Shown: positions 1-34,982 of the stretch, in pieces
How the letters are laid out: each line of letters opens with the position of its first letter
Numbering within the stretch: the first letter of the stretch is position 1
Assembly (NCBI RefSeq): GCF_008362905.1
Contig: NZ_VFJB01000003.1
Span: 7,501 to 71,500 of the forward strand
From: Deferribacter autotrophicus
GTDB taxonomy: Bacteria > Chrysiogenota > Deferribacteres > Deferribacterales > Deferribacteraceae
Direction of reading: 5' to 3'
DNA length: 64,000 nt
Program-made: the position numbers and the translations under genes
The notes under the pieces: model-generated
The model's database searches: none
Told to the model about the DNA's origin: nothing
The model's input: the letters and a program-made list of their open reading frames with translations, nothing else

Positions 1-2175
1 ATCGAGTGAAGTATTCGGATCAATAACAACCTTAATGCCATAACCTATTTCAACAGGTACCCCTCCTGATATGTCAGGTTTAGCAATTTGTTTTATCACG
101 GAATTCCCAGATGTTATTGTTATAGTACTTCCGTCATCAGAAAAATTCCATGTAGTATCAATCCCACCTGTATATTTCCCAACAAAAACAACATCCTTGT
201 TAACTTCAGGATAACCTATCCCCTGATTGTTTTCATTTAACTTTAGCGTCATTCTGCTTACACCGGCACGCAAATCTTCCACTACAAGTTGACCATTCTC
301 TATCCTCGCATCTACAGTATTGTCATAAAGAGATTCTATGAACTCCACAAAATCTTTGATCTTTTTAGTTGCTTGATATGAGGGGTAAGTGTCACTCCTT
401 GGGGTTGAAAACTGAACATCATTAGTATTTATAACTTTTGTATTAAAATAAGTATTATTATCCGGATCAATATTTACGTATTCCAAAACTAAATTAAATT
501 GTCCATCACCAAGTGTTCCGATATCTACTTTAGCTTTAATCGTGGTTGCTAAACCAGCATTTTTTAATGCCTCATTCAAATTTGCTTGAGCATTATCCCT
601 ATTCTGCTCTTCTGAACCACTACTAGGAGCATTAAAAACCACTTTCTGCCCATTTATTATAAGTTCAACATCACCACCAAAAGATATATCATTATGAACA
701 TTCTTTAGAGGTGATTCATATGTTGTTGAATCAAGCTGTTTAAATTCATCATATCCTATAAAAAACTTTCTCCCTTTCCCTGTTGCAACATAAGGAGGAT
801 CACCAGAACCTTGAATAAAACCCAGAGTATTATTTTCACTTCCTGTAACCTTTAATCTCACATATGCGCCAGCCCTTGTAGTAGCAAGCATCACTTTATC
901 ACCGTCAGCAAAGGCTTCGATCTCATTACCAAGCCCTTCCTGCTCAAGTTTCCTATTAAGCTCAAAAACCACATCCTCAATATTTTCATAAGCCCTTTTA
1001 TCCATCACAATAGAAACATTATAATTTCCATATTCAATCGTTATTGTCCTCTCTGCATCCGTGGCATTAGTCATATCAAGCTGAACATTTTCAGAACCCC
1101 ACAATTTTGCAATACCCACTGGAAACCCATTGTGATCTGTACCGCTTAACTCAATATAGTCTGCTGGTGATATATTTGCATTGTCAATATCAAGAAAATT
1201 GGTTGTTTCTGTTATTGACAAACCATTCACTGAATTGAAAACAGTACCTTTTAATACTCTATTAGTTTCAAGAAAAACTTCCTTTCCTGTTAGATTTAAT
1301 GTTACATCCTGACTATAACCGATTTTTGTGGTTATCTTACCATCATCACCATGATATCTGATGTCATCACCTGGCACATAATAAAAAGAGACTTTTGTAC
1401 TGTCAAAACTGCTAAAATCAACATCTGGTAATTTTATCCCAAAGCCAACTCCTGTATTAACGATCTGCCCAGGCTCATATTTTAATATCATATAACTATT
1501 TGCTATATTGCCATTTTTAGCCGATTCATCACTACCATTTGAATCAAAAAAAAGTTTTTTACCCGTTGAATCAACTATTTCAATTTTAATCAAATCATTC
1601 GATCCAATAACCTTTTCAATATTGACAGTATAATTACCTTCATCAAGCTCTTTTAAATCCGCAAAGGTTTTTTTCTTAACCACATCAATTTGAAAATTAT
1701 CCGTAGTCACCCCTTTTATCTGTTTTTCATCTGCAGCAAAAGGCTTTGTATCTGTTTTATAACCGGCAAATATATATCTACCAAGATAATTTGCATTCCC
1801 AATATCAACCAAACTATCTAAAATATTTTTAACATCACCTGCGAGGGCTTTTCTGCTAGTCTCATTTTGTGAAGCATTAATACCGGCAACAGCATATTCA
1901 TTCTTGGCTTTACTTATTAAACTTGAAGCATTTTGTAACTCGTTATCTTCATTGGTAATCCATGTGAGAGCATTTTCTGCATTTCTTTTGAATTGATCCA
2001 TTTCATCAATCATTCTTTGAATATTTATGGCACTAGCATAATAAACGGGATCACTTTCAGGATTTAAAAGATTTCTTCCTTTATTCACTTTATCATTTGC
2101 AACAGTCAATTTCTCAAGACTATTACTTATACTTCTCTGATTTTTCAGATAAAGCATATTAAAAGTTACTCTCAT
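1..2175 (-). CDS. flgL: Flagellar hook-filament junction protein FlgL (HAP3), partial at window edge
   Basis: Joins the hook to the filament outside the cell. Reading the minus strand from the ATG at 2173-2175 gives 725 codons with no stop, so the C-terminus lies beyond the left edge. The start MRVTFNMLYLKNQRS and the motif NPESDPVYYASAI about 40 residues later are typical of the FlgL D0/D1 helical region. FlgL is usually about 300-500 residues, so this one carries a large inserted middle domain, as do the flagellins of this window. It sits 10 nt after flgK with GGGGTTAG as ribosome site. Last gene seen of flgM-flgN-flgK-flgL. Confidence 0.9.
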   Translation of the reverse strand, partial: MRVTFNMLYLKNQRSISNSLEKLTVANDKVNKGRNLLNPESDPVYYASAINIQRMIDEMDQFKRNAENALTWITNEDNELQNASSLISKAKNEYAVAGINASQNETSRKALAGDVKNILDSLVDIGNANYLGRYIFAGYKTDTKPFAADEKQIKGVTTDNFQIDVVKKKTFADLKELDEGNYTVNIEKVIGSNDLIKIEIVDSTGKKLFFDSNGSDESAKNGNIANSYMILKYEPGQIVNTGVGFGIKLPDVDFSSFDSTKVSFYYVPGDDIRYHGDDGKITTKIGYSQDVTLNLTGKEVFLETNRVLKGTVFNSVNGLSITETTNFLDIDNANISPADYIELSGTDHNGFPVGIAKLWGSENVQLDMTNATDAERTITIEYGNYNVSIVMDKRAYENIEDVVFELNRKLEQEGLGNEIEAFADGDKVMLATTRAGAYVRLKVTGSENNTLGFIQGSGDPPYVATGKGRKFFIGYDEFKQLDSTTYESPLKNVHNDISFGGDVELIINGQKVVFNAPSSGSEEQNRDNAQANLNEALKNAGLATTIKAKVDIGTLGDGQFNLVLEYVNIDPDNNTYFNTKVINTNDVQFSTPRSDTYPSYQATKKIKDFVEFIESLYDNTVDARIENGQLVVEDLRAGVSRMTLKLNENNQGIGYPEVNKDVVFVGKYTGGIDTTWNFSDDGSTITITSGNSVIKQIAKPDISGGVPVEIGYGIKVVIDPNTSLD

Positions 2176-2185
2176 AAGCTAACCC

Positions 2186-3940
2186 CTATCGACCAACAAC
2201 ACCTGTCCCATTTATTAACCTATCAATCATCTGATCAACTGTAGTGATAAATCTTGCATTTGCTTCGTAAGCCTTTTGAAATTTTATCAAGTTTGTGAAC
2301 TCTTCATCCAGAGAAACACCTTTTACTTCTTCCAATTTAAGCTGTAACTGGTTTACCGCTTCTGTCTTGGCATCCACAAAAACATCTACCTGTCTCTTAT
2401 CACTGGCAATTTGTGCCACAAATACCGTATAAAAATCATCAAAACGTGCTCCGCCACTTTCAAAAACCTGCTCGTATTTCAAATTTGCAATTTCAAGAGC
2501 ATTGCTATTATCTCCAGGCTCACCGGTTTTACTTGTTGCGATAAAACGATTATCATTTTTGACAATATCATTTAGTTCAATTGTTTTTGCATCTGTGCCT
2601 TTAAAATAACCATACATTCCAAAAGCTGCCAAAATATTGGAGTTATCTTCGGAAAAACTAAAAGTATATCCATCTGCTGACTGTATTTTTAATTTATTCC
2701 CTTCTGCTAAATATGCCTGAATTAATCCCCCATTTGGATTACCATCAGCCTGAGATATCCTTTGTATCAGCGAATTAAGGCTATCCTCTTCTGGATCAAT
2801 ATCGATATCATAATCAGCTACTTTTAACCCTTCATCATTATACACAGATATCCTAAAAGTCCCTTTATTAACATCAAAAGGAAGTCTACCAGGATCTTCG
2901 CTAAATTTATAAGATGGGTTTTCAACATAATTCGTAGAAGTGATTTGTGTAAGACGTTCCAGCCCTTGCCCCAAAGCATGTATCTGATTTGTTTTTAATA
3001 TCAAATTCTTGGCAAATTCATCCAATGTATCAAGATATCCTTTCAATATATCATCTCTACTTTTTAATTCAGCATACAACCTTCCTGAAGTAATTTTATC
3101 ACTGACATTTACCTGAGGTTTATCAATAAGTTTTGCTCCCCAATAAATATCGTAGTGACCATTGTTATTTTCGTTTTCTACTGAATATAATTTATTTGCA
3201 GTCGCTCCATCCACAATAGAAATACCACCAATGAATACACTAAGTTGACCATCAGATCTTTCAAATGTACTTACATTGGCAAGTTCGGCCATTTTGTTTA
3301 AAAGTAATTCCCTTTTATCCCGCAAATCATTGGCATGATCACCGGCTGCTTCTGTTTTCGCTATTTGATAATTCAAATACGCTATATTTTCTGCTAAGTC
3401 GTTTATCTCTTTTACATATTCCTCTATATTTTTATCGGATTGCTCTCTAATACTTTCAATGGCACCATACCCTTCATGAATCTTTTGAATCAAAGTATCT
3501 GTCTTCTCTATCAATGTTATTCTTTTTACGGTAGCTTCATCAGAGGCATCAGGTGCAGTATTGGCAAGATCAGCCCAGGCATTAAAATAATCCTTTAGTG
3601 CATCTCCCAGTCCTGAACCGGCTTCCAACTCATTGAAATAAATCTCTACGCTTTGCAAAGATTGCTGTAAGCTTTCGTAATATTTTAATGTAGAATTTGA
3701 GTTCCTTAAATTTTTTGCAAGCACTTCATCATATGTCCTTTCGACTCCAGCAATACGAGCTCCTCTTCCAAATGGTCCAGGATGAACAAGTAGAGGGATT
3801 TCTGTTTCTATACTTACTCTTTGCCTTGAATAACCTTCCGTATTGACATTGGCAATATTATGCCCCGTAACATCTATCCCAGCTTGTGAAACCATTAACC
3901 CAGATACACCGGTTTGAAAAATTCCGAATATATTGGACAT
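2186..3940 (-). CDS. flgK: Flagellar hook-associated protein FlgK (HAP1)
   Basis: First junction protein between hook and filament. The N-terminus (GIFQTGVSGLMVSQAGIDV, then GHNIANVNTEGYSRQRV) is the rod/hook/HAP signature. The C-terminus (LDEEFTNLIKFQKAYEANARF, about residues 545-565) is the matching FlgK D0 helix. 584 aa is normal for the family. AGGTGA lies just before the ATG. It follows flgN by 9 nt, its usual place after its export chaperone. Confidence 0.97.
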   Translation of the reverse strand: MSNIFGIFQTGVSGLMVSQAGIDVTGHNIANVNTEGYSRQRVSIETEIPLLVHPGPFGRGARIAGVERTYDEVLAKNLRNSNSTLKYYESLQQSLQSVEIYFNELEAGSGLGDALKDYFNAWADLANTAPDASDEATVKRITLIEKTDTLIQKIHEGYGAIESIREQSDKNIEEYVKEINDLAENIAYLNYQIAKTEAAGDHANDLRDKRELLLNKMAELANVSTFERSDGQLSVFIGGISIVDGATANKLYSVENENNNGHYDIYWGAKLIDKPQVNVSDKITSGRLYAELKSRDDILKGYLDTLDEFAKNLILKTNQIHALGQGLERLTQITSTNYVENPSYKFSEDPGRLPFDVNKGTFRISVYNDEGLKVADYDIDIDPEEDSLNSLIQRISQADGNPNGGLIQAYLAEGNKLKIQSADGYTFSFSEDNSNILAAFGMYGYFKGTDAKTIELNDIVKNDNRFIATSKTGEPGDNSNALEIANLKYEQVFESGGARFDDFYTVFVAQIASDKRQVDVFVDAKTEAVNQLQLKLEEVKGVSLDEEFTNLIKFQKAYEANARFITTVDQMIDRLINGTGVVGR

Positions 3941-33579: not shown

Positions 33580-34083
33580 TTATATTATTTTTTCGAGCGC
33601 CTTCAAAACATCATCATAATCAGGCTCGGTGGTAATTTCAGGCACAACCTGTCTGTAAACTACTTTTCCCTCTTTATCCACAATAAAAACCACTCTTGCA
33701 AGAACACCTGCCAAAGGCCCATCAGTAATCAATACACCATATTTTTTACCAAAATCTTTCTCCCTAAAATCAGAAGCTACCGTAATATTTAGCCCCTCTG
33801 TAGTGCAAAACCTTTTTGCTGCAAAAGGTAAATCCATGGAAACAATAACGGGATCAACACCATTTAGAGAAGAAACCTTTTCATTAAACTTCCTCGCTTC
33901 TGTTGCACAAACAGGTGTATCAAGAGATGGTACTGATATCAAAAGCTGAACTTTATCTTTTGAACCGCCTACAGTAATCTCTGCCAAGTCACTATTTACT
34001 AATTTTACTTCAGGAGCATTATCTCCCTCTTGAATCATCTCACCAAAAAGTGATACAGGATTTCCTTTTAAAGTAACAGTCAT
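33580..34083 (-). CDS. tpx: Thiol peroxidase Tpx
   Basis: 167 aa atypical 2-Cys peroxiredoxin. Begins TVTLKGNPVSLFGEMIQEGD; peroxidatic Cys in SLDTPVCATEARKFN (about residue 57) and resolving Cys in AKRFCTTEGLNITVASD (about 91). Reduces peroxides with thioredoxin. GGGGTGGAG before the ATG. Expected length. Confidence 0.97.
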   Translation of the reverse strand: MTVTLKGNPVSLFGEMIQEGDNAPEVKLVNSDLAEITVGGSKDKVQLLISVPSLDTPVCATEARKFNEKVSSLNGVDPVIVSMDLPFAAKRFCTTEGLNITVASDFREKDFGKKYGVLITDGPLAGVLARVVFIVDKEGKVVYRQVVPEITTEPDYDDVLKALEKII

Positions 34084-34098
34084 AACTCCACCCCTAAA

Positions 34099-34482
34099 CT
34101 ACTCCACATTCAAACCTAAAACCTGTATTACGGCATCTTTCAAATCTTTGGCTCTAACAGGTTTATTCAAGTATGTAACAACTCCTAAATTTCTACTTTT
34201 TTGATACGATTTATAAGTACCAAAAGCTGTAATTATTACAATTTTGGCACTTTCATCAAATTTTCTCAGATTTTCAATAAAGGTAAGACCATCCATCTCT
34301 GGCATACGTAAATCGGTAACAATCACATCGTATTTGGTAGCCTTTGCCTTTTCAAGCCCCTCCAAACCAGTTTCTGCTATATCTACCTCATATCCATCAA
34401 GCTTTAAAACTTCAGCATATCCCAACCTTGTATGTTCTTCGTCATCTACAACCAATATCTTATAAGGCTTGTCCATAACCAT
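34099..34482 (-). CDS. Single-domain response regulator (CheY-like)
   Basis: 127 aa receiver only. Acidic pair VVDDEEH, phosphoacceptor Asp in YDVIVTDLRMPEMDG, Thr in IITAFGTY, Lys in LNKPVRAKD. An ATG two codons downstream is an alternative start. Its ATG overlaps the stop of the tandem-Hfq gene by one base, so the two are probably translated together. Partner kinase unknown. Confidence 0.9.
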   Translation of the reverse strand: MVMDKPYKILVVDDEEHTRLGYAEVLKLDGYEVDIAETGLEGLEKAKATKYDVIVTDLRMPEMDGLTFIENLRKFDESAKIVIITAFGTYKSYQKSRNLGVVTYLNKPVRAKDLKDAVIQVLGLNVE

Positions 34483-34982
34483 TACCTCTCATCATCATAT
34501 TTAATGATTTCACCCTGCTGATATAACGGAAATACAGTAGAAATTGCGCTTTTATAAATGAGTTGCTGTCTGTCTTCATAAGAAGTAAGCAGTACATAAT
34601 CATCAAACCCTATCAATAACCCTCTAACTTTTACGCCATTTGTAAGATAGGCAATAACCGGAGATTTTGATTTTCTTACTTCATTCAAGAAAATATCCTG
34701 CATTGGTGGCCTGGTGTGCTTTGGATGCCTTCCACGGTGAGCTTGATAATAAGTTTTACTTATATAATCCACATCAATAATGGTTTTTGCTGATGCTACA
34801 GTGGCAATATCCCTTTTAAAAATGTGTATTTTAACACCTGCATCATCAATGATTACAGAATATGGGTCAAACTCATAAATTTTACCCCTAAATCTTTCCT
34901 TATTACGCATAATAAATAGGAGTGGAGCATCTTTGACCCTTGCATTATGTAAATACACAAACTCAAGCTGAGCATACAACAT
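34482..34982 (-). CDS. hfq: RNA chaperone Hfq with two tandem Sm domains
   Basis: 166 aa, about twice the Hfq core. The C-terminal half, from about residue 98 (MQDIFLNEVRKSKSPVIAYL, then TNGVKVRGLLIGFDDYVLL and IYKSAISTVFP), is a clear Hfq with Sm1 and the YKxAIST Sm2 motif. The N-terminal half (LEFVYLHNARVKDAPLLFIM, RFRGKIYEFDPYSVII, FKRDIATVAS) shows the same pattern in divergent form. Six Sm folds could come from three chains. Cotranscribed with a receiver protein. tpx and the methyltransferase lie further downstream. Confidence 0.85.
   Translation of the reverse strand: MLYAQLEFVYLHNARVKDAPLLFIMRNKERFRGKIYEFDPYSVIIDDAGVKIHIFKRDIATVASAKTIIDVDYISKTYYQAHRGRHPKHTRPPMQDIFLNEVRKSKSPVIAYLTNGVKVRGLLIGFDDYVLLTSYEDRQQLIYKSAISTVFPLYQQGEIIKYDDER

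Follow-up and report, generated by a model that had tools for sequence, protein, structure and literature searches.

The window, a 64,000-nucleotide stretch of the Deferribacter autotrophicus genome, carries a gene that encodes two Hfq/Sm domains in a single chain, followed directly by a gene for a receiver-only response regulator (Table 1). Both the double domain and the receiver neighbour are conserved in a set of 25 genomes of the order Deferribacterales. Because the window genome also has a separate ordinary Hfq, the tandem protein is a specialised second Hfq, and its fixed receiver neighbour suggests that this second Hfq is linked to a signal. Our preferred reading, which we put forward tentatively, is that three chains form a pseudo-hexameric ring of alternating domains, and that the receiver from the same operon switches RNA binding or assembly of this ring. 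We infer the ring, the RNA binding, the receiver contact and the direction of control from the sequences and the models built on them.

Table 1. Coordinates of the tandem Hfq locus and of related genes. Positions are those of the window unless a contig or locus is named.
Feature	Position	Strand	Remarks
Tandem Hfq gene (hfq2)	34482..34982	-	ATG start, 166 aa + stop; orthologues in 25 genomes
N-terminal divergent Hfq/Sm domain, residues 1-68	34779..34982	-	PF17209 33.3 bits alone; predicted helix 6-16 and five strands within 20-64; Z 9.3 to Hfq
Basic linker, residues 69-91, predicted helix 71-81	34710..34778	-	Charge about +3; D70, I74, S75, K76, Y78, Y79, H89 invariant in 25 sequences
C-terminal canonical-like Hfq domain, residues 92-153	34524..34709	-	PF17209 84.9 bits; equivalents of Q8, D9, N13, R16, F39, D40, K56 invariant
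Short acidic tail, residues 154-166, with invariant EIIKY	34485..34523	-	E158-Y162 and E165 invariant in 25/25; charge -2.2; pLDDT <50 at 156-166
Receiver-only response regulator, 127 aa	34099..34482	-	PF00072 98.2 bits; directly downstream of the tandem gene in 25/25 loci
Redoxin-family (thiol peroxidase-like) gene	33580-34083	-	PF08534; 15 bases downstream of the receiver gene in the window genome
Single-domain Hfq, window genome	G000 C1:31766-31951		PF17209 105.9 bits, 75 aa
Tandem-like protein of family f9, 151 aa	L112:1198-1653; L113:1557-2012	+; -	PF17209 in the C half only, 37.2 and 35.9 bits

Two Hfq domains in one chain

An earlier note on this DNA had described two Sm domains, the second clearly an Hfq, and both are borne out. 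Scored alone against the Pfam Hfq profile PF17209 (curated cut-off 27 bits), the N-terminal 91 residues reach 33.3 bits (E 3.8e-08) and the C-terminal 82 residues 84.9 bits. A second profile, made from 37 single-domain Hfqs, gives the 25 N halves 11.2 to 30.8 bits (25.0 for that of the window), and shuffled N halves used as a chance control top out at 9.6 bits (n = 2000, 1881 reported). The N half lies under the PF17209 cut-off in families f2 and f8. In f8 the drift affects both halves: tested alone, the N half reaches 13.9 and 17.9 bits, and the C-half equivalents of Y25 and G29 are lost as well.

The fold of the N half, the point on which the note's proposal could have failed, turned out in its favour. 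AlphaFold2, given an alignment of the 25 relatives, returned five models with mean pLDDT from 56.9 to 79.5, and the best one alone was used (mean pLDDT 79.5, pTM 0.75). It predicts the helix and five strands of an Sm fold in each half: helix 6-16 and strands 20-25, 30-38, 42-47, 50-55 and 59-64 in the N half, helix 94-105 and strands 108-113, 118-126, 130-135, 138-143 and 147-152 in the C half, with the linker helix (71-81) between the two. The pLDDT is mostly 92-96 in the N half and below 50 at residues 86-92 and in the tail. Against Hfq crystal-structure chains the N half aligns with Z up to 9.3 over 72 residues at 1.4 A (VIA-align); among the 50 VIA-align matches listed, 48 fall on the N half and two on the C half, all of them Hfq, and all 50 matches listed by Foldseek for the tandem model are Hfq too.

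Both halves are under purifying selection. In 14 pairs of relatives, chosen out of 300 possible, synonymous change far exceeds nonsynonymous change relative to sites in each half, with the exception of the very distant f8 pair (dN 0.42 in the N domain and 0.25 in the C domain). Many dS values are saturated, so the direction of change alone was used. Three very close pairs have 0, 0 and 2 nonsynonymous against 48, 43 and 26 synonymous changes over four segments, the pair L017/L018 having 0 against 48.

An artefact or a chance Sm likeness of the N half is ruled out by its Pfam score alone, the shuffles, the fold and selection. A frameshift or a fusion of neighbouring genes is ruled out as well, since the frame is open, with no internal stop, in 25 of 25 genomes. 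All together, two Hfq/Sm domains in one chain are real and conserved.

RNA-contact residues and divergence of the two halves

The RNA-contact positions (Q8, Y25, K56 and so on) are named here in what we take to be E. coli Hfq numbering. Across the 25 sequences the C half keeps Q8, D9, N13, R16, F39, D40 and K56, with lysine for R17 and an aromatic residue at F42; an aromatic residue at Y25 is found in 23 of them, as is G29. H57 has been lost (to N, S or T) and Q41 has become N or D, so that RNA affinity may be altered. In the N half, E replaces Q8 and F replaces D9 in all 25 sequences, and I, K and E replace Y25, G29 and I30, respectively, in 23; the distal site appears to be gone. F39, D40, a tyrosine for F42 and K56 are kept in every N half, Q41 in 17. 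The residues invariant in both halves are K56, F39, D40 and the aromatic at F42. In Sm rings, strand 5 pairs with strand 4 of the neighbouring subunit, and the strand-5 region (I-[AS]-T-V) is retained in both halves in most sequences. Outside the domains, the linker and the tail are of opposite charge (+3.0 vs -2.2), and EIIKY (E158-Y162) and E165 are invariant even though the model leaves the tail disordered.

To place the two halves, a domain tree was built from 70 distinct of 91 domain sequences (62 columns, long branches; L108, L110, L111, L124, L125 and L077 were missed by the motif filter and are omitted). The tree puts the N halves in one group (100/100) and the phylum's single Hfqs in a clade of their own (100/93); the C halves join the N halves and stay outside this clade. 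With a branch length of 3.11, the N half has diverged much further than the C half. Deeper placement is unsure because of the 62 columns and the long branches.

This divergence would also fit a different arrangement, in which the C halves of six chains make an ordinary hexamer, with the N halves attached to it, or stacked on it as a second ring, as adaptors that bind the receiver and not RNA. The N half, on its branch of 3.11 and without Q8, D9, Y25, G29 and I30, could have left RNA binding behind, and the linker of about 29 residues, with its helix, is long enough for the domains to separate. However, the residues of the ring-edge strands are kept in most sequences, and the pore lysine K56 is present in 25 of 25 N halves, which an adaptor would not need; we consider this arrangement unlikely and keep to the ring of alternating domains.

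Distribution in the phylum and the ordinary Hfq

The earlier note had proposed a survey of the Deferribacterota, in which the tandem gene was found in 25 of 50 genomes of the phylum (G000 to G049), in the order Deferribacterales. Each of these 25 has an ordinary single-domain Hfq as well, and no receiver gene was found among the ORFs of the 3.2-kb locus of this Hfq in the window genome. Nineteen further genomes of the order (families f6 and f7, G029-G047) have no PF17209 match at all, near-complete ones included (G039: one contig, 98%), and judging from these genomes both Hfqs seem to have been lost together. The single Hfq stands alone in the three genomes of family f10 and in G008, where an assembly gap may be responsible (92% complete, 170 contigs).

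The two genomes of family f9 carry the single Hfq and a very diverged tandem-like protein, which is possibly an older form of the tandem. Its N half has no sequence support with the single-domain Hfq profile (1.8 bits); an Sm fold is predicted for it (Z 7.7 to Hfq), from an alignment that included the Deferribacterales tandems and may lend the fold. The gene has no adjoining receiver gene, the next gene being htpG-like (by eye), and its frame stops without the EIIKY tail.

These patterns bear on the possibility that the tandem modulates the ordinary Hfq, through mixed rings or competition for RNA, and that the receiver tunes this effect, with no independent chaperone involved. Within the order, both Hfqs are present in 25 genomes and neither in the 19 of f6 and f7, with the single Hfq alone in G008, and the strand-4/5 regions are alike across the three domain types. 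Yet a single event in a streamlined lineage may account for the joint loss, and f10, with the single Hfq only, and f9, with the single Hfq and a very diverged tandem, show no fixed dependence. We find such a role distinctly unlikely and favour an Hfq that works in its own right beside the ordinary one.

In a search of 384 genomes across the domain, the 50 of the phylum included, two PF17209 matches in one frame were found in the Deferribacterales only; the f8 and f9 tandems register by their C half alone in this search. A candidate relative in L044 (Deltaproteobacteria) was rejected, the match being to a FAD-linked-oxidase-like protein (by eye) with the peptide KIYEFDPY. A separate arrangement was seen in family f20: in three small genomes (about 1.5-1.6 Mb) two genes lie side by side, and each combines a C-terminal Hfq domain with an N-terminal part that looks winged-helix-like by eye (L073:1854-2348 and 2358-2927, minus strand; L074:1618-2121 and 2130-2624, plus strand; L075:2065-2565 and 2562-3053, minus strand). 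These pairs adjoin a biotin-carboxylase-like gene (by eye), and a lone Hfq is also present in the genomes.

The receiver gene is fixed next to the tandem gene

The link to a receiver protein drawn in the earlier note is real, since in all 25 loci the tandem gene is followed immediately by the receiver gene. The one-base overlap between the two genes described there was found too, base 34482 being common to both, and depends on the choice of ATG: a second ATG two codons in (MVM-DKPYK), if used, abolishes it. In the relatives the gap between the genes ranges from -29 to +6 bases (mechanical first-start ORFs), a spacing that suggests co-transcription. The phosphorylation residues D13, D14, D57, T85 and K107 of the receiver are invariant in the 25 sequences, and so is EEHTRxGYxE in the first helix region. 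Among 49 genomes searched for a codon pattern for VDDEEHTR, the 25 with the tandem each have it exactly once and the 24 others lack it; as this pattern was picked from those 25, its absence elsewhere and its single occurrence are what is informative.

The flanks of the pair change. Depending on the family, the upstream gene is a divergent YceD, dnaN, a pseudouridine synthase gene, an ArsR-type gene, pheT or a transposase-like gene, and downstream of the receiver the Redoxin-family gene of the window is absent in the congener G010. The receiver being fixed in all loci while both flanks vary, it is the pair and not the neighbourhood that is conserved. Adjacency of this kind is a functional link, and not proof of binding.

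That the two proteins are merely co-expressed, the receiver serving another pathway (for example as a CheY-like diffusible protein) and the overlap reflecting operon packing, is quite improbable: single-domain receivers are common and contact between receiver and tandem is our own supposition, but the adjacency persists in 25 of 25 loci through changed flanks, presence and absence of the two genes go in step, and simple packing does not preserve neighbours here, as the loss of the thiol peroxidase even from the locus of a congener indicates. No chemotaxis gene was seen among the neighbouring genes examined.

In several families, though not in the window genome, the receiver gene adjoins a convergent gene (L018:2353-3465, L006:2372-3370 and L028:2370-3497, all on the minus strand). 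Queried as 371 aa, this family has frames of 513-657 aa in most genomes and no Pfam match; its member in the window genome is at G000:C3:230476-231516. As a third partner it was ruled out: it lies elsewhere in G000, G010 and others, and occurs in 45 of 49 genomes of the phylum, Hfq-less ones among them.

A possible signal-controlled RNA chaperone

Bacterial Hfq is a symmetric six-fold ring. In the reading that we prefer, three chains, each with a canonical-like C domain and a diverged N domain, would most likely close into a pseudo-hexameric ring of alternating N and C domains. The U-binding proximal pore would be kept, since K56 and the F42-like aromatic are present in both domains, and if the domains alternate six lysines would line it. 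With Y25, G29 and I30 absent from the N half, the ring would have three usable distal (A-rich) sites only.

The receiver from the same operon would be a dedicated partner, phosphorylated by a histidine kinase, and in this state would bind the tandem protein, most plausibly at the invariant EIIKY tail or at the linker helix. Disordered peptides that stay invariant usually have a partner, and for EIIKY the receiver is the obvious candidate. The tail is absent from the receiver-less f9 tandem, a contrast that rests on one lineage and two genomes. Receiver binding may then switch the RNA binding or the assembly of the tandem, which would add a signal-controlled layer beside the ordinary Hfq. The most specific version of this scheme, in which a two-component signal gates an RNA chaperone by docking the phosphorylated receiver on an asymmetric three-chain ring and so switching the RNAs that it holds, we regard as doubtful.

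In the symmetric Hfq ring it is impossible to mutate a face in one subunit and leave the others intact. If two unequal domains shared a natural ring, this would become possible, and such a ring would parallel the eukaryotic heteromeric Lsm rings. A receiver that is fixed to the tandem across an order also makes it possible to test whether a phosphorelay directly controls an RNA chaperone. If the scheme were true, a sensor kinase would directly drive post-transcriptional control in the Deferribacterales, with neither a transcription factor nor an induced small RNA as intermediate.

Comparison with known Hfq systems

Duplicated Hfq is less new than the earlier note assumed, which spoke of isolated mentions only. 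The report on Z. mobilis Hfq describes two Sm-like domains that are common to six other Sphingomonadales species, and asks whether three tandem chains suffice for an Hfq ring (PMC2877685). Tandem Hfq and the idea of a three-chain ring are already known from the Sphingomonadales, which limits the surprise. The fixed receiver nevertheless makes the window protein somewhat more interesting than its sequence alone had indicated.

The window tandem scores 76.6 bits with the NCBIfam model NF010691 (176 positions), below the cut-off of 270. We take NF010691 / PRK14091 to be the Sphingomonadales tandem Hfq group (Zymomonas mobilis ZMO0347). At E 1e-30 this model found none in 398 genomes of the Pseudomonadota (the phylum of G101), among which sphingomonads are few and may be missed. 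Among 58 matching plasmid records, one reaches a coverage of 80% or more of the query, and none of five phage records does. This record, an 880-kb plasmid of Sphingomonas parapaucimobilis, encodes a tandem Hfq whose halves both match PF17209 (191.5 bits together). The gene (L127:3875-4477, plus strand) lies between a sigma-54 regulator gene and hflX, presumably the usual chromosomal context of hfq in the sphingomonad group. Its two halves are each other's closest relatives in the 62-column alignment (99/90), so the sphingomonad duplication looks separate from that of the Deferribacterales.

Four Deferribacteraceae species have been reported to have two distinct Hfq-like proteins (PMC7074383), and the second of these is very probably the protein described here; section 13 of that paper, where they are reported, mentions neither a double domain nor a receiver. 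The ordinary Hfq of the same genomes shares the Hfq domain with the tandem and differs in being a 75-aa, one-domain protein of its own clade. Burkholderia Hfq2, as the same paper presents it, is likewise a longer extra Hfq beside the ordinary one, but its extension is a disordered glycine-rich tail and not a second Sm domain (PMC7074383). In the literature covered, to which subscription journals mostly do not belong, we found no tandem Hfq with a receiver, no asymmetric tandem and no double domain from the Deferribacterota.

The closest known system is that of the Sphingomonadales, which shares with the present one a chain with two Hfq/Sm domains and a proposed three-chain ring (PMC2877685). 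The sphingomonad tandem seems to replace the ordinary gene, whereas the tandem of the Deferribacterales is an extra paralogue with a diverged half and a receiver partner. What is new, as far as we have searched, is a paralogous tandem Hfq that is asymmetric, locked to a receiver gene and independent of its sphingomonad counterpart.
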